A stretch of 64,000 nucleotides of DNA from Cliona cf. orientalis (Eukaryota; Porifera; Demospongiae; Clionaida; Clionaidae): the NCBI GenBank assembly GCA_963930775.1, contig OZ005702.1, positions 5,208,001 through 5,272,000 on the forward strand. Direction: 5' to 3'. Below are positions 2,674 to 54,800 of this stretch, piece by piece. Positions within the stretch are counted from its first letter, which is position 1. Every line of letters starts with the position of its first letter. A model generated the notes under the pieces. The model worked only from the letters and a program-made list of their open reading frames with translations, was not told the DNA's origin and searched no databases. The position numbers and the translations under genes are program-made.

Positions 2674-3190
2674 AAGGCATTGTGCCACGATATAAGGGCT
2701 ATTTTTTGTAAATTAGTGTCACATGTGATGTAACTGCGCCCATTAGATTGAAATCTGGCAGCCGCTTTTCAATCAATGGTTATAGTTCACGGTAGCAGAA
2801 CGTGATCGGTCCAAGAAAGGCTCAAATGTTGGAGCTGGAAGGTCTTCAGCTAGCGGAGGAAGGTAAGAGATGTATCAGAAGGACGGGCGAGAGTCGGCTG
2901 TGCCAGAGTAGCAATGTTTTTGTCTAGCTAGATCTACCACGTGCAAGGTAGTATACCACGAGTAGATTTACCTTTAGCGAGCGAGAGTAGGTCGACAAGC
3001 AGACAGAGACACCAGTCCTCTAGCAGCGCCACCAGTAGCTAAGTCCTTTCCTTGTCTTTCGATGGGTTCTGGCGTCCACGAGGAGTGCGCGACAATATTT
3101 TGTATGTGCGCTATTTTTGACAACGCGAATACGTATACTAGATCTAAATTTAGTAACAATCACCGCGTATATCGTGACACAATGCCTTTA
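2674..3190. repeat. MITE with AAGGCATTGTG ends
   Basis: The left end AAGGCATTGTGCCACGATAT is answered by ATATCGTGACACAATGCCTT on the right, one mismatch in 20. Both sides are TTAA- or TA-like, so a TA or TTAA target duplication is likely. No transposase is seen inside. Confidence 0.6.
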
Positions 3191-3192
3191 AT

Positions 3193-3930
3193 AACTAGAG
3201 CTCTGTAGAGCACATACCCCGCACACATTTTGTGCAATCTATAGATTTATTTTCGGTGCATGGCTATAATTTTGTAAACTTCAGAGAAATACTCGGAAAT
3301 GCTGCTTAACCTACTGGGGGTTCCGGTGACACTTGAAAAAGCGCTCTCTGCACCCAGACCTAGCCCAAACTAGGAACATATGAATTTCTACCTATATTTG
3401 TTGTAATAATAGTAGTATAGCTGTCTTACATTGTTTGGTTACAGATTTCAGTCACTGTAGACATCACGAGCATTATTTAGAACATCGCTGTCTTACATTA
3501 ATGTTTGGTTACAGATTTCATGTTCAGTCACTGTAGATATCATGAGCATTATTTAGAACATCGACGATCTTTACCAGTCATATGCTTGGCCACTTAGTTG
3601 TGCGCATGAGCAGAAAGCACAGTTGGTATGCATATGCACTGATGGGCACTGTCGATAGGCATGCATGGCTACGGTGGCCAACAAAAAGCCACTATTTGTG
3701 ACACTCATGGACCGTATCCCTCGATTTGACGCACACTGAGCTAGTTTTTCGCTGAATTCGATTGATTCGTTATGATTACGAGTCGCTTAGACGCCTATAT
3801 CTCGAGATATGGCGATTTTGTGCTAACGACAACAACAACAACAACGACAACAACAACAACGACAATGATGACACGACCGATTACTTTACCCCTTGCGCAT
3901 GCATGTGCGCGGGATAATAATATAATTATT
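3193..3930 (+). repeat. Dispersed repeat family R1, copy 1
   Basis: It starts with ACTAGAGCTCTGTAGAGCAC and ends in a GC-rich segment after TTACCCCTTGCGCATGC. It has a CAACAA/CGACAA microsatellite near 3830. Other copies are at 29331-29918 (same strand) and 31408-32034 (inverted), with a tail-only copy at 60670-60752. This copy has an internal duplication of about 70 bases (TTGGTTACAGATTTCA at two places near 3440 and 3505). Confidence 0.65.
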
Positions 3931-5437
3931 ATTTGCGCAAAGTGTTTGAAAAGCACCTACCATAGGCTATGGCGCCAGCGGGATCCTTGGACAGTGGAGT
4001 CCGAGTGCTATGCTTGTCTCGTTGCTTGATTTGTACCCAAAGGACAGTCAAACACCAGTGATAAGCTTTCAACAACAGGAAGATTTCCTGGTAGAGACTA
4101 AGAGAGATAAACACATCCTTGCTGGCTACGATGTAGCTTACCGCCTTCGCCTGAACTTCACAGACACTACCATAATAACTCAAACGCTGGGTAGCTTCAA
4201 TGATCGCTTGCTGAATGACAGTCTAGCTATCCAACGACTACATGTAGCCATCTCCTACTAGGAAAGTGCAAAGTGCACGGTCGAGCATCACAATGTTTTC
4301 TTGATGACGTGGCACCGTTTTGCAATCTGATTGGACGCGGTGAGATCTTGCCGTGCGGAACCAAAATTGAATATGCATTTCATCAGACGACATGTGGGAG
4401 TCCTAAAATGGATAAAGGATTTCGATGGCAAACTTGGACAAGAGTGCTGGGAGTGTGCTCCCCCAGGAAAGGTTTGAAGTTTACAGTCTCAGGGACTGCT
4501 TTTGGTAGCTTCTGAGTCCCATTTTAACAGCCGGGCACACTAAGTCTTTAGCTTCACAAGGTATCCAAGATTCGAAAATTTACAGCTAATTCCTTTTTTC
4601 TTTAGGCGTTTAAAGGCACTCACATGAGCTCAGTGCACAGATAGTACTAATGGCAAATAACTAGCTATGATCCCATGGCCTATGTGGCTCACTTTAATAT
4701 AAGTGGCTGATTAAGACTTTAAATATTTCTGTATTAGGGCCAAGATAGTGATACCTTAGTAAAGTCTGGAGAAGCTAGGTTTGGACAACCTTCCTTTCAA
4801 ATCATGAAGCATGGACGCTATTTGATGACCTTTGCCACACGATCGATAGAGTTAACGATCATTACCCAACCAAATTATTCAAAAAGTGGTCCAGTTTTCT
4901 GCCAGCCCTGATGCACAATGAATAATTGTTTTGTCAGGAATGGGCACTGTACCTGCCAGAATCCACATATAGGCTAAGGCCATCAAACTAAGAAAATTGA
5001 ATGGTTCGTATCTATATGGGGTCCAGTAGTCGTCATCTGTCTTGTGTTGGAGCTCCAGGCATTTTAGATAATTGAAAGTGCTGTACCTCACTACCTGTAC
5101 TTATCTCGAAGCACTGATCCACCCTTCAGAGCCGTTCTAGTGAAAAAACCACACTTGCATGGTCTATTTATAATGACGTAATCGGGTAAAGAAATATTGC
5201 CCCCTGCGTACGGACTGTAGTCTAAGAGCCAACAGGACATATTTAAGCAACGACCCTGTGCCTATTATGAAATTATATCAAAAGTAGATAAAAGTGAAAA
5301 CAGGTGGGGATTAGAAACAAATAATTTACCTTGTGTGGCCTTGTATCAGGGATTGGATATGCATGATATGTACAAAGAGGCTTTACTATGTTAGCCATTT
5401 AGCTAGCTCAGTCAGATCACCTTGCTACCATACTCAG

Positions 5438-5620: not shown

Positions 5621-6007
5621 GTACAGTCAATTCAGGGAGAATTTAAATTTGCGGGGAGGGAGGATTTAGGAGGATCTATACCTCCCAGAAATGTTTACGT
5701 CTTCTATTAGTGACATCTGATACTATCAAGCAATTCTTTGAGGGGGGAGTGGGGGTGGGGGGTTAATTGAGTCAGAAGGGCTCTAGGTGTGCTTCACCTT
5801 CCATGTTAATCTCTGTCACTATAATATATGACATTTTTGACCATGGGGAGCAGTAAATTACCTGAGATGTTTGAATTCTAAAAAGGACTGAGGACAAATG
5901 ACACATGTACATGTATGTGTAGCTTTGGCTCCTCTCAGCCTATCACCTGGGAATCTGGGGACAAGGCTACCAAATTTCTTAAGTTTACCGTAAGTTTGTA
6001 TCTTCAG

Positions 6008-6343
6008 AGCCAAATAGAGCTAATGGAGTGAAATTGAGTGATAAGGACGTTGTTCACCTCATGCGAGTGCTCCAGAGCTACAGCTACAAATGGAATCCGA
6101 TTGGTCTTAGTCTCGGGTTCACCGCACATGAGTTATGCAATATCTCATGTATGGTTACACTATTGACGGGGGCTCCAGTGAGCTACCTGCAAGAACTGCT
6201 TAGTCAGTGGGTCCAATGGCCGACAGAGGAACATCAGAATAATCCCACGCTAGGAGCACTATGCACAGCATTACGCAGCTCTCTTGTTGGTCTGGGTAGC
6301 CTGGCTGAGGAGGTGGAAAGGGAAATGAAGCAATATGCCACAG
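6008..6343 (+). CDS. NLR1 exon 3: DEATH domain
   Basis: The acceptor TATCTTCAG ends at 6007 and the donor CCACAG|GTAAAA follows 6343; both ends are phase 1. The roughly 112 residues have the DEATH pattern: a first helix (DVVHLMRVLQSYSYKW), then IGLSLGFTAHEL, the helix YLQELLSQWVQW, an acidic or polar turn, and LGALCTALRSSLVGLGSLAE. The W-x-x-IG-x-x-LGF signature and final VGLG-LA helix match the DEATH exon at 51818-52164 on the other strand. DEATH domains bind one another in receptor or adaptor complexes. The exit phase fits the giant NLR exon at 17356, giving QYATG-LTQDQ across the junction. It could instead end a separate small adaptor gene. Confidence 0.7.
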
Positions 6344-8504
6344 GTAAAAAATACACCAAAATTTAGTAATAATTTTTGTCACCTTCCTTCAGTTCTTTTG
6401 CCAAATCCTGGCATCAAGTTTTGCTGCATGTACAATGTACATATATATGTAGTATGTTATAGTGCAAAGGTAACTATTGCGTGTGTGAAAGGGCCACGTC
6501 CACATATCCTTAACCTAGCATACATGCACGCACATCGTTTCTTGAATAAATTCTCGAGGAGGTTAGTATATAGATATACAGAGCTCGTATTCTTGTTATT
6601 TTTGTGCCAGCGACAGCACAACATTTAAGGATCATCAGATTAATAAACAGTAGGCAGAAATTGTCACTGTGGCCTAGCTCACTTAGGAATTGGGTGAGGG
6701 GGGTGAGTGTGGAGGTGACTGCCCTGCCCTGTAGCTAGGTACTGCCTGGGCAGCCTTTCACTGTAAATCTCACAGAGTGATGGGGAGAGGTGAGCATGAT
6801 AAATGTAATGTTAGTAGGGCATGAGGTAGGAGAGTAATAAAGTATTAGAGTCAGCAGTTTGATGGAGTGGCAAGAATTTGTGTGTAATTATTCAATATTC
6901 TTAACATCACTAGGACGTACAGAATTTAGATTGGAGACGCCCGTCAGCGCATACGCTTATAATGTACCATAAATCGGGAGTTTTGTGTAATAAAACCTTC
7001 ATTAGAAAAATATTCACGTGTAACAGTCTACACTTAGGTGCCTGATTTATCAGAAAAAGGAAGTTGTAAAATATTCATAGCTGGCGCGCCACAACGCGTC
7101 ACACATTGTAATTGTGGTTACCTCATGCGGACTACTCCCCATATACTTCTATAGACAAAGGGCGCGGGCCCCAGTGCTACACATAGAAGCCAGGCTGTTC
7201 AGTGAATTTTTTTCCAGATTTCCAAGGCTTCATTCTCAGACAGTTTACACCGTATCGATTCCATGCCATTGCTGCAGGTTAACGATATAGTATGGATTGT
7301 AAATCTACCCTTGTTTTCATTCTAGGATGTCCATTACTGATTTGCACAAAATTCAAAGTTCATTCCAGACAACACTTTGTCCATAGTCAGCAGACAAGAC
7401 GGCTCACTACGAAGAATCTATTTGCTATGAAGAGTTTTCGCTTGGACTGTGGCTAGTACTAGTACTAAAGTTTAGCCTGACTTGTGTTTGATAGCTTAGC
7501 TATGTTGTACTCTGAATGGACATCTATCTAAAGTCATGAATTATTTGTTCTTTTAAAGTGTGCTTGGTGTTCACCAGGTAAGTCCAGTACTCTCCAGATT
7601 GTACTTAAAGATAGTTCTGATACTTACCTATTTGTAAACCAGGGCCTAGAGGTACAGCCTGCCCATTACTGATTTGCACAAAATTCAAAATCTGTCCTAG
7701 CCAGGCGCGGGTTGACCACCGTGGCCGCCATTGTCACTAGTAAAGACTACACTTCTTGATGATCTTGATACTGTTAGAAAGCGCTTTTTGTGCTCTCTTT
7801 AATGGCACCTTAGACAAGGCCATACCTTGTTCACAATAAAAGTTACAAGCTGAATAATGTAGCCATAATTTTTACCGCCACGTGCGCGGCTTGCATATCA
7901 TTAACCCCCATATACGTAGTACAAAATTCCATTTTCCGATAAAATGTATGGACTTCCGGTCACCTTAGTGTAGACTGGTAATAATTATTTTTTGTTGCCT
8001 GATTTCCGCATACTAAATTTTTAATTATTTGTTCATTGTATGCAGGACAGAGGCTATTTATGCTATATACAAAGAAAAATATTTTTCAGACGATCATTTT
8101 TCTTGTGTATAATACTATAGTCCGTGTCCTAACCTGAAGACCATGAAAGATGTGCTCTTCTACAAGTTCAGAAGGCCCACGATTGGTCCGATTTGCGGTG
8201 CCGTGTGCACAAACAAGCGTGGCCATAGAGATGCATTCTCGAACGAATGGCGCGAAGTGCCACGTGTTTCAAGAGGCCTGCTCAGCAGGCCACCGAGCCT
8301 CAAGTGAAGCTGAGAGACGAGGTCTGTTCTTTGTCGTACATAGCCTGGTGGTAGATTCGACAGAGCAAGGACGTTGCCATTGCAGTGGTGAATTCGAGCA
8401 GCTGCTATTGACCTGCATCGTGGGGTGTGGTCTACAAAGTAATACTAATAGGTTCAATGTTCGTGCTGCTGCAGCTGGCATGCACACTGTACTAACGATT
8501 GACA
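6344..8504. other. NLR1 intron 3, left part: no gene recognised
   Basis: A segment around CCCATTACTGATTTGCACAA occurs twice (about 7331 and 7660), the only clear internal repeat. An open frame at 8150-8596 matches no family I know and runs into the MITE at 8505, so I do not call it a gene. Confidence 0.5.
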
Positions 8505-12017: not shown

Positions 12018-13165
12018 TTAATAACTGGTTGCAGCTCCATCTAATTCTATGACTTTAGGCAAGACTTTTTTCAGATGCCTTATGTACTTTAAACACTTAG
12101 CTATATCTACAGTTCTCCAAAATCGTATTATTCCTTCAAATACTTAGTCCTTAGTTGTCGGCTTAGCTTCCCTGCGAATGAATTCCTTGAGCTCATGCCA
12201 GAGGTTCTCAATAGGATTGAGATCTGGTGACTCGGCTGGGGTCTTCCACCAATTGATGGAATTGTCCTTCATCCAATCGGCAGCGTATCCAGACGTGTGC
12301 TTCGGGTCGTTATCTTGCATAAATCTGTGCTTTTTAGGAAAAACATCGGTGATGAATGGTACAAGCGTGCCCTCGAGGATGCTCACAAATAGCTCCTTCT
12401 TCATGATCCCTCAAAAATGCATATCCCAGTCCTTCCTTTCTTCGATATACCGGCCCACACGTGCACCTTAGTTGGGTGTTTGGGTCTAGAAGGGATATCA
12501 TATGCAATCATGTATATTATTGGGTACACAAGAAACTATTTTACTTGCCTATGATATTATGTACTGTACTGCTATTAAGCTTTGGAGTGCACATACTCTA
12601 TGTACGTGTACATGTACATGTACCCTATCAGGTACCTGGGTTGTGGACGAGGGGCCTCTCCTTGTTTTCGGCAGGCAAATCGTTGATGGCTCTCCATTTG
12701 TACAGTGCACTCGTCGCTCCAAATAAAGAATCGTGAAGGTGATTTTCTTGCCCAAGCCAGTCGCTTTCCCTTGTTCACCTCGCGAATCAGTTGACAATAG
12801 GCGCTGCCTCGAAAGGTCCAGCCCAAAGCCGTCCGGCATCTGAGGATTGTTCTCAGGCTGATTGAATAGCCTTTCTTGATCAATAGCCGGTGCAATTGGT
12901 GAGCTGTCGTTTCGTCATCAAGCCTCATTTGATGTTCTAGTATTTGCTTGATCTCGGCCGTTACTTTAGGCGGTCTTCCCGAGCCAACTCTTCTCCCTGT
13001 CGAACCCATTGCACGGTAATGCTTCAAAAACTTGTAGATACCGACTCTCGAACACTTCAACTTCTCCTTTTCTAGCTCCTTTGTGATGGTAGGAGGCTTG
13101 AGCCCTAGCGATGCAAAATGGAGAATACGTTGCTTCTTGTAGGTACTGAACACCATCATTTTCAC
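12018..13165 (-). pseudogene. Tc1-type DD34E transposase with one intron, damaged
   Basis: It reads from the ATG at 13165 towards 12018. The N terminus has paired helix-turn-helix DNA-binding segments (LKPPTITKELEKEKLKCSR; GRPPKVTAEIKQILEHQM). The catalytic core shows FIWSDECTVQ, then FMQDNDPKHTS and SPDLNPIENLWHELK, with 34 residues between the second Asp and the Glu (DD34E). A 150-base intron (12635-12486, CAG|GTACCT to TTCTAG|ACC) restores the frame between PRPQP and RPKHPTKV. Two lesions remain: a one-base deletion near 12405 (before MKKELF) and a TAA at 12144-12146 in place of a sense codon, after which about 42 conserved C-terminal codons continue to a stop at 12018. As read it would be inactive. 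Confidence 0.8.
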
Positions 13166-13186
13166 ACTTCGAATGAATTTTTAATT

Positions 13187-15570: not shown

Positions 15571-17355
15571 GACACACCCATTCGATAATGCGCCGTACAC
15601 ACCCACTATTACGTACTGTCGAGATAACGACAAACTAGCGTGCTACTGCACTGCACGCTACAAAATAGAGTGGATTTATACTCAAAGGAAGATGAGCAGT
15701 GGAGGCAGTCTTGAGCTAGCCCAAGAAACCAGAAAGAAAGAAGGAAAGAAGAAAGAAAGAATGAGAAATGGCCTATTTCTTGAACATCTGGTTCTGACGT
15801 GTGCAACTGTTTTGATGAATGATCTTGGTCTTGTTAGATGCACAATTTGCTGGAGATTCTGATTTTCATACTTAGAAGTTTCACAAAATTACCGATTTTG
15901 AGATATTTGGGTATTTGTAATGTATTACATGTATGGCATATCCAGGCCATCCCTACGTATAGAGTCTACCGACTCTATGATACTGGGACCCACTAACAAG
16001 AGGACCTGCTTACAGCAGCAAAACTTCTGTCAGGCGATCGCGAGAACAATCCAGCTTCTGCCATTCATTCAAAGTATTTAATTAATGGTCTTCAAGTAGA
16101 TCGACTTTCCAAACACCCCCCGTTTAAGCAACATGAGTTCCACTACAACTCTAGAACTGCAAATTCAGCAGCATTTTCAATTCAATACTTGGTAGTAACT
16201 TGAAATTAATGAACAAGCTGCTTGTGGTATTATACTACCTAGAGCTATAATATATAATATAGGTCCCTGGGCAGTGGAGCTGTTTAGGACAAAGTTGGAG
16301 CCTATTATATATTATAGCTAAATGCTATGGTAATCCAGTGCGAAAAAGTTTAGACTTGGTTCACTGATGATAGTCCTCAGTCTACTTCCATCAAGACTGA
16401 TTGATGAATGTAGCGGCGATTAGCAAGAAATAGATAAGGAGTTCAGCTGGTTCATACTGACTAGATAAGGGAGCTGCATGCAAAACAATTTATTGCAAAA
16501 TCATTGTCATACAAGCATAAGTAAAATAATAACTGTTCATTCATTGTTTTTTTTCTTATGCCAGCATTGCATCAGCCATTATCCACTCCATATCTGCACA
16601 ATAATTATAGAATCAGTGCATGCATATCATATACTGGTGAAAGTATGATAATAACGGCTACCTGAATGTAGTATCACTATTCAGTGAGGTTGTCCATGTT
16701 ATCGTAATCCTTTGCTGAGGATACTTAGGTAACCACTCGAAGAAAAACTTGCTAATTAAGAATGATTATGGAGCAGCAGAGTGCAATGATCAAGTTGGAG
16801 CCTACCTTGTCCAATATACATTGTGTGATGTTCCATTGAGGATCCAATTGGTCAAACCATCCTATTGATTGTTGACAGCCCCCAACATCAATTTGAATGA
16901 ATGCAATTGTGATTGGCTTCACTCCAATGTCCCAACAAGTTCAACTGCAGAATGTAGCAGGCATGCATACATAATAGCTACATGCAGATTGAAATTTGTT
17001 CCACACAATAAGTATGTTAGGGTGCTTGCATTGGTTGGGTAATAAATCTAGTAGCAGCAAGTATGCTCTTTCTTGTTGTGAAACGTAATAATATTATTTT
17101 GGTCTGGCGTCACCACCTTCCACAGCCCCCAGAGAGCTTTTAGAAAAGATAGTGCATGCCATAAAATGAAGAGTGCGTGTATTTGATGATAACTTCCTTG
17201 AGTGTGTAAGTTGCCTTGTATCTTCACAATTTCGAGACATACATGCTTCCTTTGTAGCCATGTGCATACATACTTATCATACTCTGAGCTGTCTTATCAT
17301 GTGCGCCGCAGCTATTGTCATATCATGCTATTTTCTTTAAACACTGATTTTACAG
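15571..17355. other. NLR1 intron 3, right part
   Basis: I see no gene. 15823-15990 (CTTGTTAGATGCACAATTTG onward) is a diverged copy of 52797-52960 inside an intron of the minus-strand DEATH gene. 16243-16320 is a small foldback with CTATAATATATAAT arms. The intron ends in CACTGATTTTACAG at 17355, a good acceptor. Confidence 0.55.
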
Positions 17356-20300
17356 GCTTAACTCAAGATCAGGCAAAGTCAGTAGGTTGTGAAAAGTCAG
17401 TAGACATTGACGTAATTATCGAGGATTTTGAAAGTCGATTTCGCTGTCTTCAAAAGGAGATTCTTCATCAACTAATTGAGAATAATGTAGATACTTTAAC
17501 TGTAATCAATTCTCTTACACTGCTTCCAGTAAAGCTTAAAAAAGAGTATGAAAAAGCCATTCAAGAGTTATTACCTTTCTTTTCGAATAAAGAAAGCTTA
17601 AATAAGCTTTTCTTTCATCTTAATCCTCTTTTTTCGTTCCTTGATTATGGATTGCTTGAGTATATCATCAATGAGTATGGTAGCGATGTATTAAAGCATG
17701 ATATGATTACTTATTCCAGTGATATGCGTATCTTCATGAAGGAGACAACAATTAAACAGTTAATAGAAGCTGATCATATTCCTGGCCAAACTGAAATCCC
17801 ACCCAAATTTTCTCTAATAGAGGCCAAAATTGGTGAAGATGCTAGCAAGTGTACTTTAGAGCAACTTAATAGACTTAGAAAGAGATACTGCAGTGAAGTA
17901 AAACTGTCTGAGATCGTCTTTCATCTGGTGGCAGTTGTAGAATTCAACTCCTTCATTGTTAGGTGGCTAGTACCATCAGCACTTGTTGATGATGTAGTTA
18001 AATCTACTAAAAATTTAAACCAAAGCTTCTATCAAGAGTATAAGATTACCTTCTTTACCCTAAATGGAATGTGGCTTTTCATAAGCAAGACTGAGACTGA
18101 TGCAATGTGGTCACAGCAGCATGTGAGTGATGCAAAATTTAAAGATCAATTCCACACGATGTACAAGCAAGTTGTGTATGAATTAAAACTTGCACAAATA
18201 ACAAGGCAAAAATTATCATCATATTTTAAGAGATCACTGAAGTGTCACCAAAGTACAAGTGACTTATTAAGTCATGAGCTTTTGAATCATAAGCTTCCTG
18301 TATCTGTTGTGGACTTCAGAGTCCTTGCTGCTGCAATAGAAGGGTTTGGTAGTGATTGTTTAAAAAGTGTGATGAGTTCATACAACAAGTACATATCAAC
18401 CTTTTTGAAGAAATCCTTTATACAAAAATTAAGAAACTCTTTAGCTGTTCAAGTTACGCCTTCTAGATATTCCATAGTCAAGTGTAGAGTCAAGGAGGAG
18501 CCTTCACAGTACACACTGGATCAACTCTTCAGTTTTCAAACCAGATTCTGTACATCAGTTAATTTCAATGAGCTCCATTTTATTATGGATGAAGTGAACA
18601 CAGAAATGAGTGATTCATTCACTGTTAGCTGGCTTGTATCACCAACCTTTATTTCTGATATAATGCAATCTAGCAAAATTATTGACCACAGTATCTATCA
18701 CAGATTATATATCACCTCCCTTACCCTGGATGGAATGTGGCTATATATGAGTGAATCTGAGATTGATGTACTGTGGTCACAGATGCATGTGAGTGACACA
18801 AAATTTAAAGATCAGTTTTGTACCATGTGCAAGCAAATAGTGTACGAACTAGAAAAGGCACAGGTAACAGGGCAGCAATTATCATTGTTCTTTGAGAAGT
18901 CGCTAGAATATCACCAAATGACAAGTTACTCATTAAGTGATGAGCTTTTAAATCATAAGCTTCCTGTATCTGTTGTAGACTTCAGAGTCCTTGCTGCTGC
19001 TATTGAAGGATTTGGTAGTGATTGTTTAAAAAGTGTGATAAGTTCATACTCCAAGTACATGTCAACCTTTTTGAAGAACCCCACTGCACAGCAGTTAATA
19101 AACTTGTCAGCCATTCAACTTAAGCCTTCTGAATATTCCATAGTCAAGTGTAGAATCAAGGAGGAGCCTTTACAGTACACACTAGATAAATTTTTCAGTT
19201 TCCGAACTAGATTTTGTACAATTACGGATATCAATGAACTCTGTTTTGTTATGGATGAAGTTAGCACAGAAGTGAGTAGCTCACTCACTGTTAGCTGGCT
19301 TGTACCACCAGCCTTTGTTTCTAACATAATGAAATCCAGCAGGAATGTTGACCAAAGCTTCTATCAGGAGTACAAAATCACCTCCCTTACCCTGGATGGA
19401 ATGTGGCTCTATGTGAATGAAGCAGAACTTGAAGCAATGTGGATACACATAAGCAGTGCAAAACTTATTGATCAGTTTCAAATTATAAATAAGCAAATTG
19501 TACTCCAATTGAAAATTCAAAACACACACAAGGATGAGGTGTCACAGTGTTTGATGAATCAGCATCCAAATCTTCCAAAAGTCACAAGCATTTTTTTGAG
19601 TGAAGTAATCTTAACTTTTTGTTTCCCTCCCTCTGGATTCTTTCTTGATTTTGATATGCTAAGTGTCATCATAAATAAGTTTGGTAGTGATTGCTTAAGA
19701 GACGTGACGATGTCATATTGTAACTTTATGTCAGGATTTATTAAGCAGTTGACTGTACAACAGCTACTAGACTTGCCACCTGTTCCTGCTAAACACCATC
19801 AAGGTTTTATTGAAGTAGAGTGTGGAATCATGGAAGAGCCTTCAGGATACACCTGTGATAAGATTTTAAGTATCAAAAATTCCATCTGTGCAGAGATTGA
19901 CTTTAGTGGATTTATGCTTACCATGAACCATGTCAGAAAACCACTAAGTGATTCATTTTTTGTTAGGTGGCTTACTCCTAATCATTTTGTCCCAGACCTG
20001 ATAGAATCTGCCAATCATAATATAGATAGTGCATTCTACATACAAAAGAGCTTAGCATCACTATCTGTTGGTAACCAATGGGTGTACAATCCAAAATTAA
20101 TTCCATTTGGTTACAAACTAAAGGAGAAATACCAGCAGTCCCAGGGTTCACCATCTCCAATTCATTGGATTCCTTCACCAACAAAGAAAATATTCCGACT
20201 AGCTATGATCCAGAGAGAGAGAGTGCAACGAGGTCATATTGAAGACAGATTTGTACAAATGACCGTCAGTGGTAGGGTAGATGATATTCTTCATGATAAA

Positions 20301-23138
20301 TCTCCAGTGGAACTTGAACACATCTTCAGAAACATACTACATGGAGGTGAGATCATTTTGACTGAAGGAGCCCCAGGGTCTGGCAAGAGTACTCTAACTG
20401 TCCACATCTGTCAGAGATGGGGCAAAGGAGATTTATTTCAACAATTCACTGTTGTGATCCTTGTCCAGTTACGAGACCCGGCAGTACAAAGAGCACAGAC
20501 CATAGCTGACCTGCTTCCTGTTGAAAATGCTGAGGAGATAGCTGCTGAACTAATAGCTACTAATGGACGTGGTGTCCTGTGGATCCTTGACGGGTGGGAT
20601 GAGCTCCCACCTCACCTACAACAAGATTCCATATTCCGTAAACTCTTACCACCTAAAGTTAGTGAGCAAAAATTAGGAGAGATTCGAGAAGACCCCTATT
20701 ATGCTGAGTACGTAAAAAAGAATTATAGTGACATGAAGCTTTGGGAAGTGTATCTCCAAAATAATCCCCAACATGACCGATTGCTTGCAGAATGTTCAGT
20801 GATCATCACCTCTCGTCCAATTTCATCAGGTGACCTACACCCAGTGGTCTCTTCACGAATTGAGGTGTTGGGGTTCGCCCCAGAAGAGCAGAGGTGGTAC
20901 TTCACTGAGTGTCTCAAGGGAGACACCAAAGCTTTAGAAGCCCTACTTGAGAAGATCCAAGAAAACCCTGTGGTACAAAGCATCTGCTACCTTCCACTCA
21001 ATGCTGCTTTCATAGTACACACTTTCAAATACAGGGATCAATCACTACCCAACACTGAGTATGAGATCTACTTATCAGTCATTCTCAGCTGCATTCAACG
21101 CCATTATGATAGGGAGGGCAGAGGACCCGATCGTGAACTACCTAGAAACCTAGCATCTTTTAATGATCTTTTGAGGATTGAAGCAGTGAGAGAGCCTTTT
21201 CAGTGTCTCTGTGAGCTTGCCTATTGTGGTGTAATGGAGAATAAAGTGACCTTCTCTTCCAGTGACTTGCCTCAAGGATCCAACACACTCAGTCTTCTTC
21301 AAGCAATAGAGAGCTTTCTCCAAAGTGGAAAGTCAGTGTTCTATAACTTCCTTCACCTGTCAGTCCAAGAGGTTTTGTCAGCCTATTACATAACCACAAA
21401 GTTGTCAGATAGTGAGCAGGTGTCTCAATTCCAGCAGCTGTTCAACCAGCCTCGTTTTGCTGCTGTGTTTCAGTTTTATGCTGCCATCACCAAGTTGAAG
21501 AGTCCAGGGATACGCCAAGTTATTGATAGAATAGTAGAAGCCAAGTCCAAGCCTCTCTTAGTGTCTCTTCTTCGCTGCTTACACGAGGCTCAGGACCCTG
21601 CCCTCTGCCTTTATGTAGCTGAGAGACTGAAGTATAAGCTAGATCTTAGTGAGACCTCACTCAGTCCACTGGACTGTCTCTCTGTTAGTTTTTTCCTCTC
21701 CTTCATTACTGGTAAGAAAAATACTGTTAATCTTGCCCAATGCCACATTGGTGATCTTGGTGTAAAGTGTCTGACAAAGTATCTGTCAATGAGCAGTCAT
21801 ACTGACCTTGTAACTGTTAACCTTAAGGGCAATGACATTCATGATGAAGGTGCTTCACATGTCACTAAAATGCTGTACTTCATTGAATGTCTACATTTAG
21901 ATATATCAGATAATCCAATAGGAGTAACTGGAACTTCCTATGTGTTTCAAGCTGTTAGAGAGAGTGCTATATTAAAGACTTTAGTCTTGATTGGCGGTAC
22001 TATCATAGATGACCTACTTCCTGTGGAAAATACTCAAAAGGTAGTGACTGAGCTACGAGCTACTAATAGGCGTGGTGTCCTGTGGATCTTTGATAATTTC
22101 AAAACTCACCTGCACTCTGTAGTCTTTTCACCTAAGCATGATTCTAATATTGAATGTTCTATCATAGTTACTTCGTGTCACATTATTAATGAAATCTTCA
22201 AAACTAAGTCCAAGCCTCTCCTAGTGTCTCTTCTTCGCTGCTTACATGAGGCTCAGGATCCTGACCTCTGCCTTTATGTAGCTGAGAGACTAGAGCCTAA
22301 ACTAGATCTGAGTATGACTTTACTCAGTCCACTGGACTGTCTCTCTGTTAGTTTTTTCCTCTCGTCTTTTAGTGGTAAGGAAACCAGTGTTAGCCTTTAC
22401 TGCTGCGCTATTGGTGATATTGGTGCAAAGTGCTTGTCAAAGTATTTGCATGAAGATAATCGTTTGAACTATATTGGTAAGCTAGCCATTGATTTTACTG
22501 TAAATGAGATACATCAAGAGGGTACTTCACATATTACTGGGATGCTTTACTTTATTGAACATCTATACTTGACTAATAATCCAATTGGAAACACTGGAGC
22601 ATTCTTGATGTCTGAAGCTTTAAGAGAAGCTTCTACACTCAAGACTTTAATCCTGAACAGCTGTGGTATCACTTCAAGAGGGGCTGAAGATCTTTCAAGA
22701 GCACTAGCTCAAAATAGTTCTCTGGAAAAGCTGGACATTGGTTTGAATAATATAGGAGATGATGGAATAAGCCACGTGGCTGACGCCCTCAAACAAAACA
22801 AACAACTGAAGGAACTCTGGGTTGGTCGATGTGGAATGACAGACAAAGGAGCAGCTTCTCTGGCTAGTGCTCTCACTGTCAACAACTCTCTCAAAATGTT
22901 GCAAGTGGGTGGAGCTAAAGGAGCACTAACAGAAGATGGACTCTCAACAATAGCTTATTCATTAGCAAATAACTCATTGTTCAGGAAACTAGCAATCCCT
23001 TACAACTTTGTCTCCACTACTGCTGATCGTTTAAGTCAGGAGATCAATGAAGCAAGGAAAAGAAATGGACTCCCACCCATTAAAATTCAAGGTGAGTATG
23101 GTCTATATGGCATGGATAACAATTTGTACTGCTTCTAG
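17356..23138 (+). CDS. NLR1 main exon: module array, NACHT ATPase, LRRs
   Basis: One exon of about 1,910 codons enters in phase 1 after TTTTACAG at 17355. The frame is open back to 17202, but those 51 codons look like intron. In residues counted from 17202: four copies of an unrecognised module of about 150-180 aa (about 130-305, 363-515, 585-740, 813-962); a pre-NACHT segment (IHWIPSPTKKIFRLAMIQRE, about 985-1045); and NACHT with Walker A GAPGSGKST (1056-1064), Walker B LWILDGWDELP (Asp 1130) and TSRP (1203-1206). Then come FLHLSVQEVLSAYY near 1383 and ribonuclease-inhibitor-type LRRs from about 1500. Residues 1601-1790 repeat part of NACHT and the post-NACHT region. A donor CAAG|GTGAGT after 23091 (phase 1) implies a further exon; unspliced, the frame stops at 23138. 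The expected role is a cytosolic immune-type sensor. Confidence 0.85.
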
Positions 23139-44984: not shown

Positions 44985-47900
44985 ATGGCTACACAAGGTG
45001 AGATATGTTGTAGGCTTTAAATAATGGAACCAACAAAGGGATCTATAACGTGTACTCCAAGTGTGAATGATCAGATTTATCCTGGTAGCTACTTTTCTCC
45101 CTCATGTCCATATAGGCATCTATCCAGGTGAACCAAAGCTAAAGGACCTGGTCTGCGAGCTGAAAGAAGTAGACTGGAATCAGCTTGGCATCCAGTTGAA
45201 TGTTCCAAGACACATTCTTAGAAACATTGATCGAGAGAACCCTGGCAATGAATCCAGGAAGCTGTCAGAAGTGCTCCAGTATTGGATAGACAATGAATCA
45301 GAACCATCATGGGAAAGGATAGTCCAGGCTCTGCAAAGGATCGATGGACACAAAAATATCATCAGTAGGATCCAGTTGAAATACAACATCAGTCCACAAC
45401 CTCAATTGCAAGGTTATATTGAGTCTCTCAGTGCTTCTAGATCTAATGAAAGTGATCATCAAATTGTGTCAAGGAGATCTTGTATAGCTGAAGGAGGTGT
45501 ATCTGTAGGCAGTGTGTCTGCCAGACCTATTCACAGCCTTGAGGAGCAGCTGTCCAAGTTCCCTGCTCAGCTCCTTGATAGTCCCTGTGCTGATGCCCAT
45601 CTGGTCAAGTTGAGTCAGTCCGTGACAGAGTGGCAGGACCTGGCTCCTTACATGAGACTAACGCTAGCAGAGGAGAGAGGGATCCTATCAGCCTCCCACC
45701 AAGTCACTCCTGCCAGACAATGCTCTGAAATGTTCAGAATATGGAGGGAGAGGCTTGGAGAAAATGCTACATACAGGTAAGTACTTATGTCTTAATACTG
45801 TCATCTCTGTGCAGTTAAATGCACTGCAGGATACAGATGCAGCATGAGAGTTCTAGTTCAGAAACATGTATTTGGTCGAAAGGATATTGTTATCGGTGGT
45901 GGAACAGCTGCATAGCTGCTTCTGTTGTACCAGGGGCGTAGCTTAGTTGTTTCCTTGTTGCCCGGAAACCCCCCCTGGCAGTCAGATTCAGTATTATCTT
46001 AGTATGATTTAGCTATCAGGAAACCCCCTTGGTTTCCAGATTCAATGTGCAGGCACTAAAATCTCCTAAAACTTAGCCTAGATCTCCTCCTTTTGTGCTT
46101 TTCTCTGCCAAAATATCGAGAATCGAGCAAAATCTTGCTGAAAATGGCGATCGTTAATTAGACGGCGTGGTCGAAAAGTGGGCGTGGTCTTTAAATTTTT
46201 CGCGCGCGCTCTGCGTGCAACTGCTGGAAACCCCTTCAGAAAATCCTGGCTACGCCCCTGTGTACATAGGCATTGTTTACACAGACATGAAAACAAACTC
46301 AAGCACACTAATTGATACTAATCAGGAATCGATTAGCTATCGCTCAATCTGGCAGTTCTACCACATGGCAGTGCAATTGCAAGTGAACTGTACTAGCTGC
46401 TAGTCCAAATCTAGATAGCATAAATCTATTCAGTAGCCATTGCCTGAGTTCGTTGAACAGTGAAACTATTCTAAATTTGTTTTCGAAGCTACCTGACTAC
46501 CTTCTATTCACGGAAAGCTGATGATTCAACTAGTCATAGTTCCGTGACTCAAGCCATCTATTAATGGTTGTTTCTTTGTTGGTTTGTTTACTGTGCAACT
46601 CTCTTTCTGTTCAAAACTATTGTTGCTAGGTATAGCTAAAACGGTTGTTGCTATGCATGTGGACTATGGTGTGCGTGATTTTTAGTCAATCAGGTGTGAT
46701 ATAATATAATTGTTATACCATGAATGCCAGGGATTTATGGTGATGTAAACTGCCCTCGGATTCGGGTTGGTTTACTGCCATAAATCCCTGGCCCCGTGAT
46801 ATTATAATAGCCTCACTGGCTCTGGGGGTATATCACTTACAGTAGGACCTTTACGCAGTTGAAAACCATGAAGGTCTAGTTAAAGCAATGTACTCAAACG
46901 TGTTCAGGATTCTATGTAGAGTATTCTATCTTCTAAACCATTAATATTTTATGTAGAAACTTCCAATATTATAGTTTACAGAAGGGTGATTCCTGGGATG
47001 ATCATTTCCCTTTTCCCCACCAACAAATTGGTCCTTCAATACAATAATAAATATTATTATCAGTTCTCCTTACACTTTATACAGGTGTTTAATAGCATCA
47101 ATTCACGAAGCAAATAAAGTGGATTTGATCGATGCACTACAACGAATTGTTACACTTGAACAACTTCCAGTACAGCGACCTCTGATTCAGCTAGCTAAAC
47201 ACGATCTTGATTGGTACGGTAGCTACCTAAAGAAGCAGTACGTGGAAGTCCTTTTCACTCTACAGGTATCTGCCAACAAATGGCTTCCTTCACCAACACA
47301 AAAAATCTTCAACCTGGTCATCATCAAGAAAGAAAAGATTCAAAGAGGAAAACTTGACAATGAATTTGTCCACAAGACCATCAGGGGACAAGTTGATGAC
47401 ATTCTTCTAGAGAAGTCCCCCATAGAACTGAAAGACATCTTCAAGAACATTAAAGGAGAGAGAAAGGTGATTCTAATAGATGGTGCTCCAGGTAGTGGGA
47501 AGAGCACACTGACTGTACACATCTGTCAGCAATGGGGCAGAGGAGAACTATTTAATGAATTCACTGTTGTGATACTTGTCCAGTTACGAGACCCAGAACT
47601 TCAACATGCAGAATCATTTGTTGATCTGCTTCCTGCTGAAAATCGTGAAACAGCTGAACAGGCTGCTACAGAGATTATGGCTGTCAAAGGCAGGGGGGTT
47701 CTTTGGATACTGGATGGCTGGGATGAGCTGCCACCCCACTTATTAAAGAAGTCTATTTTCAGCAAACTAATAAACCCAAAGCGCCAGGGGAGCCCACTGT
47801 CAAAAACAGCAGTGATAGTTACTTCTCGTCCGATTTCATCTGGTGACCTTTGCCCTGTGGTCTCTTCACGAATTGAAGTATTAGGGTTCACTGCTGAGGA

Positions 47901-49395
47901 GCAGAAACTATTCTTTACCGAGTGTCTCAACAATGATACAAATGCTGTGGAGACTCTAATGGAGAGACTTAGCAGTAACCCAGCCATGGAGGGCAGCTGC
48001 TACCTTCCTCTGAATGCTTCCATTGTAGCCCATCTTTACCTAGCCAATGGATCCCTCCCTTCCACTATTTATGGCATATTTTCTTCCCTTGTCCAGCACT
48101 GTCTCTCTCGCTATCTTCACGAACGACAGGGAGTATCTGAAAAGCTAGCCAGTTTTGAATCATTTGATGAACTGCCTGACAAATTGCACTCCTCCTTTAA
48201 GCAGCTCTGTGAACTAGCATTCACTGGTGCTAGGGACAATAAGGTAACCTTTTCTAGCAGTGACATAGAAGCTTTAGGATCTTCAGACGAGATTTGTGAG
48301 CTTGGTCTACTGCAGGCTGCACCGAGTATCATTTCTCATGGTCGATCAGTTTATCATAATTTTCTCCATCTGTCTATTCAGGAATTGCTAGCTGCAGTTC
48401 ATATATCTCGAATGCCAGCCAGTGAGCAGATCTCAACATTTGACTCCATGTTCAATGATGCTAGCGCTCGATTTAGTGCAGTGCTTCAATTTTATGCGGC
48501 CATCACCAAGCTTCGTACATCAAGGCCTCTCCTCAGTTTAGTACCACGTTTCTTGCGTCCTGTACCTGCAAGTATTTATGATCTTGTTAGAAAAGTTGTT
48601 CGAAAAGACTCCAAGGATCTTTTAGCTATAGTTTCACTTTTGAACTGCTTGTATGAGGCTCAGGACACTGAATTATGTAAGTATGTAGGAGAACAGCTTA
48701 GAGACAATCTATCATTATTTCATAGATCAAGTGTCACTGAATCTGGATCTGAGGTACAGTATATTTTTAAGGTGTCACTATTACCCCAAGACTGCCTCTC
48801 CATTGGCTACTTTCTGGCTTCCATTGCTATTAGTTATAAAAGCAGATTCTCAGTGGACTTTAGCTATTGTTCCTTATGTGATACTGGCATAAAGATCCTC
48901 ATGCAAAATCTTTGCAGGAGTCTGGATCCTCACAGCGAAATAACTGGCCACCTTGATATAGATATAAATCACAATGAAATCACTGGAGTTGGGGCTTCTT
49001 ACATAGCTGAGGCATTGAGAAGTACTAGAGCACTGAGGAAGCTGGATCTACATTGGAATCCAATTGGTGATAAAGGACTACTGTACATTGCAGGGGCACT
49101 GATAATCAACACATCACTTACTGAACTAAGTATGAGAAGATGCAGTCTAAGAATCACAGAGGAGAGTGGTCCAGCACTCACTGAAATGTTACAGAGAAAC
49201 AAAACTTTAGAAGATTTTAACTTGTCGCACAACGAAGCCATATCAGCATCATTTATCATAGAGGGTCTCAAGAAGAACACCACTCTCAAAATATTGAATT
49301 TAAGCTATTGTGGCATCACAGATGAAGGCTTTCATTTGATTCAGAGTAGTACCTCAACATGCAAGATATATCGTTCTATAATATTGGACTTTTAA
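44985..49395 (+). CDS. NLR2: DEATH-DEATH-NACHT-LRR receptor, 3 exons, 994 aa
   Basis: Exons 44985-44997, 45116-45776 and 47085-49395 join in phase 1 then phase 2 and sum to exactly 995 codons; the TAA is at 49393-49395. The start is ATG GCT ACA CAA G|GTGAGA. Residues 12-92 form a DEATH domain (VDWNQLGIQLNVP; VLQYWIDNESEPSWERIVQA). Residues about 165-248 form a second death-fold, split by intron 2 (EWQDLAPYMRLTLAEE; RIWRERLG). A pre-NACHT segment shared with NLR1 (KWLPSPTQKIFNLVIIKKEK) precedes NACHT: Walker A GAPGSGKST 358-366, Walker B LWILDGWDELP with Asp 435, TSRP 471-474, FLHLSIQELLAA about 651-662. Ribonuclease-inhibitor-type LRRs fill about 847-985. All ATPase motifs are intact. The predicted role is a nucleotide-switched cytosolic sensor signalling through DEATH contacts. 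I see no lesions. Confidence 0.9.
45932..46260. repeat. hAT-style MITE in NLR2 intron 2
   Basis: The ends CAGGGGCGTAGC and GCTACGCCCCTG are exact inverses. Inside are GGAAACCCC words and GGGCGTGGTC with a GC-rich CGCGCGCGC segment, as at 345-450. Confidence 0.6.
46707..46808. repeat. Foldback in NLR2 intron 2
   Basis: TTATACCATGAATGCCAGGG..ATTTATGG is mirrored by CCATAAATCCCTGG and GATATTATAA. The arms are about 30 bases with a spacer of about 35. A short inverted element or stem. Confidence 0.6.
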
Positions 49396-51817: not shown

Positions 51818-54800
51818 TCATTTCAAGCTAAGATCGTTAGCTGCTCTTCCTAGCCCAGCCTGCCTCAGGGCATTCTTTAGAGCTTCTAAAGTGGCAAAGT
51901 CTTGGCTACCACGGCCATCGCCCGGGGCCCACTGATACCACACCGACAGCATCTCATTGAGGTAGCCTAAAGGGCCCTGCACGAGTAGCATTGGTTTGCT
52001 TTCGATGATGTCCAGCTCCCCTTGCTGGAATTCTAGGTAGGTACCAATATTTCTCCACTTGGTAGCGTGTAGCTTTAGTTGATCAAGTAGCTTTGTATGA
52101 TGATCCCTTTCGTTGAGACGCATTGAGTCAGCTGAACATGAGGAAGAATTGGCTGCAGCTTTTCCTGCAATTGATACAAAGTTGAATAATCAGTGTTAGC
52201 CACCAAAATAATCAGATTATGCGTAACAATAATATTAGTAATATGTGGAGTGTTTAGAGGTATGAGTGACAATTACAAAAAGGAGTTTGATGAACGGTCA
52301 TATTATATTATACCTCTGTGATATACACAGCTTACCAGCAACTTGATCTTTGTAGACAGTGACAGTTTTGAAGCCAATCTTTTTATGTTGATAAACAGGC
52401 TGTTGAGCTTGAACCGTCTCTATTGGATCTGTGAGCAATAATAAGTTATGAATAATATCCTATGGTAGTCTAATGACATGCAACACCCAGGCCACTCCCA
52501 TAGGGGCTGTATCCAGAGCTGCAACTGGAGTCAAGATTTTTGATAGTCTAAATATGGCCTTGAGTGCTTGACCACGGCAAATTTTTTCCCCTTGACCCGT
52601 TGACCATCAATTAACTGCGTATGCACAAAATCTCGGCCACGTCTCTTCGATGCCTAGCTATGCTGGAGATAGGGCCCAGAACACCGCTTGACTGATCCCC
52701 AAGAAGTACCTTGAAGGTTTGACTGCATTTTGACCCTGATCATAGCTCTGGACACAGCGCCTATAGGAGTGATCCCCCTTGTGAGTTAATGAATTTTCTT
52801 CGTCTTGTTAGATACATAATTTGCTGGAGATTCTGAGTTTGACACTTAGAAATTTCAAATTTCTGTTTTGAGATATTTGGGTATTTGTAATGTACTATAT
52901 GTATGGAGTATCTGGGCCATCCCTACTTATAGAGTCGACTGACTCTAATAAAATTAAAAATTTAATTAGTATGATGTACTATGGATCAAAGATAATAGAG
53001 GGGGCATCCCAATCTTCACCCTCTACCATTATTATTATGAGCAAAGGCTCGCCCCCTCGATAATTTACATCACCCTAGTAACTAGAGCTCTCTTGAGCAC
53101 AAACCCTCGGAGCGTTGCATGGAATTAGCTACATGCTCAGTGTCAACAGTTGCATGCAGAAAAGGGGGTACCTAGCTGGGGTGAGGTTGGGGACGAGGCT
53201 AATATTGTACTTGCATAGCAGGTTTCAATGGCTCACAGCAGCAACAACCCTGGTGTGTTGTATCAAGCTCCACACTGTGATACCGACATCAACTCAACTT
53301 CCCTCACTACATGTAGCCTAACCTCCAATTCTTGGGGACTTAGCTAACTACATCAGGACTACAATGCAAAGCCTTGGCGCAAGACTGAAGCACACTGAGC
53401 AATATTGTACGCCATATTATTATTAATATTATCGCAACTCACTATTGGTTCAAGCACTGTAATACCATGCATGCATACAAGCTTAGATATAGCCAGAGAG
53501 TCAAAGGGTACCATAAGAATACACATGGCAATTGGTAGCTAAGCCTTAGAGTTAATAAGAAGCCACAGTCATCCCACAATCGTTGAGAGCTCGCCCGTGG
53601 ACTGAGTGAGGAAGGCAGCGGGATTGATGCAACCGTGCCTAAAGCGCATGTGCTGAGGGTTAATAGACGTACATACCATATTTATAGCTGGCAACACACA
53701 ACGTTCTACAGTCGAGCCTCCGAACAAAGGACACTTTGGGAACGGGCCTCTTGTCCTTTGCTCGGAGGTTGTCCCTATCTCGGAGGTTCATGATTTTTCA
53801 ACCCATTTTGATTGTATTATCCTTAACAAATTAGTAAATGCACTGAAATGCATGATAAGAGCAGTAGTGATAATCAAGTGGTTGGTATGTTCTGTTTTCA
53901 GTATCAACATAGAATTTTTGTTTCTGAACTAATGGCTACTGCAAAATCATTATCTGGATTCAAGGCCAATTATATTATTATTATCGCGCATGCGGCAACC
54001 GCTAGATTGCTGCAAAGGTGGGCGTGGCATCGTTAATTTAAGGGTGTGGTTTCCTGATGTCCGCTATTTAGAGGCAGTTTTGCATTGAAAAGTCACGTTG
54101 GGAGCTTGGATCTTGTCCGCTGTCCGGAATCGAGAAGCGTCCGCTTCTCGGAGGTTGCTAATGTACTATAACTATGCTAAATTCAATCGGTAACACGGCA
54201 CTTGTCCGCTGTAGAGAGGTTGTCCGCTTCTCGGAGGGTCCGTTATCAGAGGCTCGACTGTATTTGTACATTAAGTCATGCTATCACTAGCTTGGGCAAA
54301 GTCAAGAAGCTTAGAATCGGCAAATGATGCCAAAACTGGCATTACCAAACAAAGCGTTTTCAGAGAAATCCACACAAATCATACCTTTGGCACGCCATGA
54401 TAAGAAACCTTATAACACACTGCACTTTGGACTCATAAGCAGCAGTTAGTGTGGTAACAGACAGACAAACAGAACAACTACAGTAACCCTGCAGCGCATG
54501 CGCCGAGGGTTAATAATATTATATCCATGCTTACATCTGTCCTCCAGTGAGTCCAGCCTCATCCCAGGGCGCAGCTGCCTCAGTCTCTCATCAACCTGCT
54601 TCAGTCGGGTATTAACCACATTGAGGTTGTGAGTCATCTCCCCAAGCCTGCCCTCATTGTGCTTCAATTCGTCTGTGTAGCGCTCCATCTTCTGCGTAAT
54701 TTCATCCACTCCCATTTTGAACCCCTTCATCGCTGCCTCCCTCCTATCACGGGTGTCGTTGTCAAGCTGAAGTGTTGTATAGTACAGCTGAAAATTTTCA

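Follow-up and report, generated by a model that had tools for sequence, protein, structure and literature searches.

What is the module that stands four times in tandem before the NACHT domain of a receptor gene in the sponge Cliona cf. orientalis? The window, which is the whole stretch of 64,000 nt analysed here (contig OZ005702.1, positions 5,208,001–5,272,000, designated C14 below; assembly of 216.8 Mb), contains on its + strand a single open frame at 17202..23138. This frame encodes 1978 amino acids (aa) in the order array, NACHT and leucine-rich repeats (LRRs), and its ends are taken as the bounds of the gene. The gene codes for a NACHT-LRR receptor (NLR), a probable immune receptor of the sponge. 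With moderate confidence, we read the array as a tandem two-domain adaptor module, an unnamed helical domain followed by a TRADD-N-like domain, placed in the N-terminal signalling position of the receptor.

The array gene and its four units

The array occupies 17412–20117, with the starts of units about 222 residues apart. Each unit is composed of two parts, a helical half of about 115 residues and then an alpha/beta half of about 95 residues. By alignment of units, the whole of unit 1 lies at 17412–18110. Its unnamed helical half (17412..17780, end approximate) carries the pattern FESRF...LTLLP...FLDYxLLEYII..YGSDxLK...Y, and its TRADD-N-like alpha/beta half (17790..18095, bounds approximate) has the order beta-alpha-beta-beta-alpha-beta, with a serine (Ser; 17949–17951) in the beta2-beta3 turn. 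Units 2 (18129..18776) and 3 (18795..19442), both of a middle class, and unit 4 (19455..20117), of a last-unit class, were delimited by unit searches, alignment and tree and are likewise helical plus TRADD-N-like; all four are on the + strand. The repeat begins at 17412, about 60 residues before the first FLDY helix, and the module start of the original prediction is moved accordingly.

The four units are homologous in sequence, as had been suggested, including the similarity of units 1 and 4 to units 2 and 3. Searches with single units carry this conclusion, because each retrieves other units without circularity, unlike a hidden Markov model (HMM) that scores the four units at 231–301 bits and was seeded with those same units. 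For instance, the unit-1 query found unit 2 (35%, E 8.9e-25) and unit 3 (39%, E 1.9e-30), the unit-4 query found unit 3 (38%, E 5.7e-27), unit 2 (34%, E 3.1e-23) and unit 1 (30%, E 3.3e-17), and the unit-3 query found unit 2 (68%), unit 1 (40%) and unit 4 (38%). In the alignment of units, identity to unit 1 is 35% for unit 2, 39% for unit 3 and 28% for unit 4. At the DNA level, direct repeats with a period of 666 nt cover three copies. BLASTP of the protein against itself printed the full-length self match only, which is evidence neither way.

NACHT was located at 20352..20915 (+; aa 1051–1238; PF05729, 63.0 bits against a cut-off of 26.7), and the C-terminal LRR_6 region at approximately 21520..23138 (+; 72.2 bits against a cut-off of 23.4, in 6 stretches). 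A NACHT above its cut-off and C-terminal LRRs, as expected of a NACHT-LRR receptor, are both present by Pfam. Neither CARD nor PYD is among the Pfam matches of the 1978-aa protein. An N-terminal death-fold effector is not required in the sponge class NLRX (PMC12909245).

Relatives of the two halves

Pfam does not recognise the unit. Array pieces scanned singly gave no Pfam match save one at E 0.036, and searches of the units against Pfam and the sequences of the Protein Data Bank (PDB) gave nothing significant. To that extent the claim that the module has no named domain stands. The module nevertheless has relatives, since its alpha/beta half probably represents a TRADD-N-like domain, though a distant one. 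What prompted this comparison was the order of the predicted strands, together with a search of the literature. An AlphaFold2 model made with the four window units (mean predicted local distance difference test score, pLDDT, 53.5; predicted TM score 0.51) consists of six helices followed by beta-alpha-beta-beta-alpha-beta; a prediction from only unit 1 was of no use (pLDDT 32.6). The fold of TRADD-N is RRM/ferredoxin-like, with a Ser motif in the beta2-beta3 turn (Kaur et al. 2021, PMC8195603).

The Pfam family PF20694 (TRADD-like_N) provided the reference for the comparison. It has 46 matches in the genome at E <= 1, 24 of them over the cut-off, and none of the 46 lies at the position of an array unit. 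Thirteen PF20694-matched loci were used, seven picked over the cut-off and six added later (one over, five below). An HMM of the four window units alone matched three of the first seven, weakly (E 0.00013–0.0006). AS.hmm, which was built from array and single units only, without any sequence picked by PF20694, matched all 13 loci at 17.5–42.7 bits in a very small search set, and nine of these matches extend to model position 128 or beyond. PF20694 itself matches 7 of 37 aligned units, a number equal to that of the members picked by PF20694 (the individual matches are unnamed). With hhalign, the whole unit aligned with the 13 loci (AS2 vs B2) at 97.0%, E 1.2e-10 (best of 20 shuffles 0.09), and the helical half at 96.6%, E 6.3e-10 (best of 20 shuffles 0.0016). 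The alpha/beta half of the single-unit proteins described below aligned on its own with that of the 13 loci (B2C) at 87.5%, E 3.6e-6, over 101 columns in register (best of 20 shuffles 0.074). The alpha/beta halves of the two kinds of unit, array and single, align with each other at 99.8%, E 6.1e-30, so that the single-unit group links the array half to TRADD-N. At first, the case for TRADD-N in the alpha/beta half leaned on the helical half; judged by these profiles, with 13 loci it stands by itself for the single-unit group only. The position of the Ser that marks TRADD-N in the literature is occupied by Ser in 71 of the 76 array units, in all 20 single units and in six of the seven PF20694 loci, the seventh having Cys. 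The published motif (uS) wants a tiny residue before the Ser, and Gly, Ser or Cys is there in 7/7 PF20694 loci.

Several observations weigh against this interpretation. The TRADD-N models of Pfam have no direct match to the window protein or its pieces. PF13820 (NCOA6_TRADD-N) has no match in this genome; because its controls likewise gave no match, absence cannot be concluded from this. Of the 13 AS.hmm matches, four stop early, three near position 105 and that of L063 within the helical half, and the AS.hmm matches have no shuffle control and take their E-values from a very small set. The array alpha/beta half alone is weak (AC vs B2C, 14.3%, E 0.0019; best of 20 shuffles 0.021), and pooling array and single units (ASC vs B2C) gives 45%, E 0.00022 (best of 20 shuffles 0.095). 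With seven loci, the alpha/beta half alone was unconvincing, at E 0.0088 for AC vs BC and 0.004 for SC vs BC, where the best of 10 shuffles reached 0.032 and 0.03, respectively; in the helical half of those loci (BN), one of 10 shuffles scored E 0.00013 against 6.4e-7 for the real AN–BN comparison. Immediately ahead of the Ser, Gly, Ser or Cys occurs in just 31 of the 76 array units and in 2 of the 20 single ones. The structural model is of low confidence at its mean pLDDT of 53.5, and Foldseek of this model against the PDB returned nothing with E <= 0.001. The 50 weak Foldseek rows, all with E > 0.001, include several ACT, acylphosphatase and RRM entries together with unrelated ones, e.g. V-ATPase subunits. 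The MATH domain has been argued not to be a universal partner of TRADD-N (Kaur et al., PMC8195603), and for the array both partner and mechanism are inferred.

The helical half, for which the low-confidence model gives six helices, is by sequence a conserved domain without a Pfam model found, and so the truly unnamed part of the unit. Arrays, single-unit exons and those PF20694-picked proteins that were examined all have it. Against Pfam, 26 N-terminal regions gave a best E of 0.0047, each family occurring in at most three regions; one Death_MADD match (E 0.16) was among them. Against PDB sequences, the best E-values for this half were 0.49 and 0.56. Its identification as a classical Death domain is unsupported, as seven Death domains taken from this genome gave 0.1% with hhalign. 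A scan of viral_contigs with four units yielded 150 pattern matches and 0 relatives.

Sister genes, single-unit proteins and Death domains

The genome was queried with units 1, 3 and 4, and the best 150 candidates were scored in each search. For unit 1 these were the best 150 of 318, with 119 on C14 and 31 elsewhere. Merging the hits of the three queries gave 53 clusters on C14, with an estimated 1 (11 clusters), 2 (12), 3 (9), 4 (9), 5 (8) or 6 (4) units; both the number of clusters and this distribution are approximate because some clusters are pieces of one broken array (e.g. 5293866–5298073). Unit number appears to vary among sister genes, at an estimated 1–6, and the repeat-number change foreseen by the original prediction is supported at this level. 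For 35 of the 53 clusters no NACHT is among the best 103 of 490 candidates scored, and the window's own cluster, which does have a NACHT, is one of the 35. Elsewhere on C14, two NACHT hits at 5415115 and 5417281 are both in frames of 2612 aa, and the equal lengths suggest that they probably share one open frame.

Units also occur singly. Four long single-unit frames were obtained (L052, L053, L054 and L058), of which the three scanned, L052, L053 and L058, all carry NACHT and LRR; other single units are mostly in frames of about 220–300 codons. In L050 a unit and a protein kinase (Pkinase) share one frame, and a second unit is in the frame just before another kinase frame; these are two adjoining genes (2684–4318 and 5802–8101) of single unit plus protein kinase, with a Death frame upstream of each. 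A Death hit lies within 5 kb upstream of at least 11 of 31 single-unit exons outside C14. That count drew on 31 of the best 150 of 1292 Death candidates, among which the window's own Death domain is not included, and thus says nothing on the window. A home-made Death HMM was built from eight domains, those of L046, L050 (two), L051, L055, L056 and L057 and the window's own. With it, a Death frame was found upstream on the strand of the unit in 8 of the 20 loci L039–L058 (L046, L049, L050, L051, L055, L056, L057 and L058); six of the eight are found by construction, being sources of the HMM, and L049 and L058 are new. L045, also outside the HMM sources, has a new Death match on the strand opposite to its unit. 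L058 (193–555 and 2746–5808) is a possible Death–single unit–NACHT–LRR gene and a possible intermediate to the array NLRs.

The array of the window had been described as lying between a Death domain and NACHT. NACHT does follow it, but the Death domain before it was not recovered by either kind of search. Pfam found no Death domain before the array in the 1978-aa protein or its pieces, nor in ten chosen frames upstream of the gene. The home-made HMM, run over 927 fragments of the window, found none near the array gene. The one fragment below E 0.01 is 45067–45777, a match expected by construction, yet one that Pfam finds too; the next-best match (E 0.012) is at 51821–52189, on the opposite strand and far from the array gene. 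Among 29 array loci (L010–L038), the 1.5 kb upstream of the unit-1 match gave 0 matches of this HMM below E 0.01 in fragments of at least 60 residues. The fragment at 45067–45777 belongs to a second NLR of the window (45067–49395, +), where a Death frame (PF00531, 45067–45777) is followed by a NACHT-LRR frame (47119–49395); no unit match was found in this second NLR.

In the drawn tree of units, which is without support values, first units group in one clade and last units resembling unit 4 in a second; the middle units make up additional clades. The tree labels 'p1' in L017, L019, L021, L022, L030 and L035 are frames starting inside a broken array, so averages by position are blurred. Among the matches listed, the unit-4 query found 14 other units at 72–92%, full-length matches beyond those at no more than 41%, and between the two groups short pieces only (68%, 53% and 47%). 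Units 2 and 3 had been called nearly identical in DNA and the array a product of recent growth. They are 80.2% identical over 648 aligned columns, with a synonymous divergence (dS) of 0.41, and for each, a unit of some other gene is nearer (72% and 75%) than its neighbour in the array (64%). Tree, dS and DNA identity together reject the idea that units 2 and 3 arose by recent duplication private to this gene, and recent growth is not supported. Duplication of whole arrays with variable middle units appears likelier than recent growth within this gene, because units 2 and 3 are nearer to units of other genes and the classes of units are common between genes.

Other repeats were observed in the same gene. 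A 90-nt piece of the NACHT region (20501–20590) recurs at 22004–22093 (81%) in the C-terminal part, adjoining a direct repeat of 266 nt (21520–21785 and 22183–22448, 82%) within the C-terminal region; by sequence this is an internal partial duplication. Upstream of the gene, a transposase-like remnant lies at 12144–13180 of the window on the - strand, with HTH_Tnp_Tc3_2 and HTH_32 both below cut-off.

Role of the array and comparison with known systems

In the adaptor reading, the LRRs would sense a ligand and the NACHT domains would then oligomerise, as in known NLRs. Each subunit of the receptor would present a string of TRADD-N-like interaction surfaces, and because oligomerisation clusters such strings, the array could act as a multivalent arm for recruitment, with a reach and a valence that depend on the number of units. 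Likely partners would be the single-unit proteins of the same genome, some with an upstream Death exon and some with a protein kinase; through them the receptor could feed into a pathway of the RIPK-like kinase or death-fold kind. Kaur et al. proposed that TRADD-N interacts with flanking domains and switches through the Ser (PMC8195603); a tandem array would multiply this surface.

Alternatively, the array may be a sensor or bait, comparable to an integrated decoy, that binds ligands and widens their range with unit number, as the original prediction had considered. The large expansion and the varying estimated unit number agree with this idea, as does the raised sequence entropy of TRADD-N families outside NCOA6, TRADD and DEDD2 proper (PMC8195603). 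However, the ratio of nonsynonymous to synonymous divergence (dN/dS) between genes has a median of 0.40 overall (957 pairs), 0.39 in the helical half (773) and 0.44 in the alpha/beta half (1268), the pairs being non-independent, and exceeds 1 in a share of 0.001 of pairs overall and 0.003 in the alpha/beta half. On average the units thus appear to be under purifying selection, though such pairwise averages are compatible with positive selection at single sites. The first and last unit classes are moreover conserved between genes, and the LRRs are already there as the usual sensor. We regard the sensor role as unlikely.

Slightly less probable is a structural spacer, in which unit number would tune the distance from the N-terminus to the NACHT ring, or the oligomer geometry, without specific binding. 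The regularity of the arrays would suit such a function: neighbouring unit hits start 645–690 nt apart in 94 of 109 cases, and among the 18 clusters for which a NACHT is listed, 14 have it 256–265 nt from the last unit hit (the gap being 205, 214, 700 and 889 nt in the others). Yet the retention of Ser in most array units, and the single-unit versions that adjoin Death exons or kinases without an array, argue for binding rather than length alone. Equally improbable is that the alpha/beta half is another ferredoxin-like domain put in place of TRADD-N after the same helical domain: it is the helical half that links most strongly with the PF20694 loci (SN vs BN, 96%, E 3.9e-9, vs 0.0088 for AC vs BC), and for the array alpha/beta half alone E does not improve beyond 0.0019, but the single-unit alpha/beta half aligns by itself and in register, and the Ser is conserved.

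The adaptor reading could be extended, speculatively, to a class of animal NLRs in which an array of helical and TRADD-N-like units in variable number replaces the death-fold effector. Valence would be set by the gene, as about 1–6 units multiplied by NACHT oligomerisation, and would recruit single-unit Death/TRADD-N-like/kinase partners; unit number might even vary between individuals and serve self/non-self recognition. We hold this broader proposal to be doubtful. Tandem TRADD-N-like modules as the N-terminus of one large NLR clade would point to a testable output route through Death, kinase or TRAF adaptors. The genes with an estimated 1–6 units also form a naturally occurring series of copy numbers in which to ask whether immune signalling is tuned by the valence of the adaptor.

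No published description of tandem TRADD-N arrays in NLRs was found in the literature covered; supplementary architecture tables were outside its scope, and an earlier report is possible. STAND NTPases with TRADD-N have been named in the oyster Crassostrea virginica (PMC8195603). For the sponge Amphimedon, Kaur et al. (2021, PMC8195603) described an expansion of TRADD-N and its pairing with kinases and Death-like domains. The Cliona units resemble PF20694/TRADD-N proteins in having a TRADD-N-like domain with a conserved Ser, a large expansion, and in some single-unit genes a Death domain before or a kinase after the domain. They differ in number, as TRADD-N tends to be single-copy and placed between domains in the proteins of PMC8195603, whereas an estimated 1–6 units occur here. 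Section 10 of that paper names neither a tandem array nor NACHT for the Amphimedon proteins; in the Cliona genes scanned, the array precedes NACHT-LRR, and unlike the pairing in Amphimedon, no Death domain was found before it.

In vertebrate TRADD, TRADD-N binds the MATH domain of TRAF2 (PDB 1F3V; PMC8195603). The predicted order of the fold, from the low-confidence model, and the Ser in the beta2-beta3 turn are shared with TRADD. In contrast to TRADD, where one TRADD-N is joined to a C-terminal Death domain (PMC8195603), the array protein has several TRADD-N-like domains, no Death domain that we found, and NACHT-LRR instead. Large NLR families of sponges have been published, namely NLRX, NLRD and NLRC of Dysidea avara (PMC12909245); TRADD is unmentioned in the main text of that paper. 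The Cliona genes share with the Dysidea NLRs a NACHT and LRRs over Pfam cut-offs and membership in a large family, and differ from them in the N-terminal region, which here is an array of TRADD-N-like modules.
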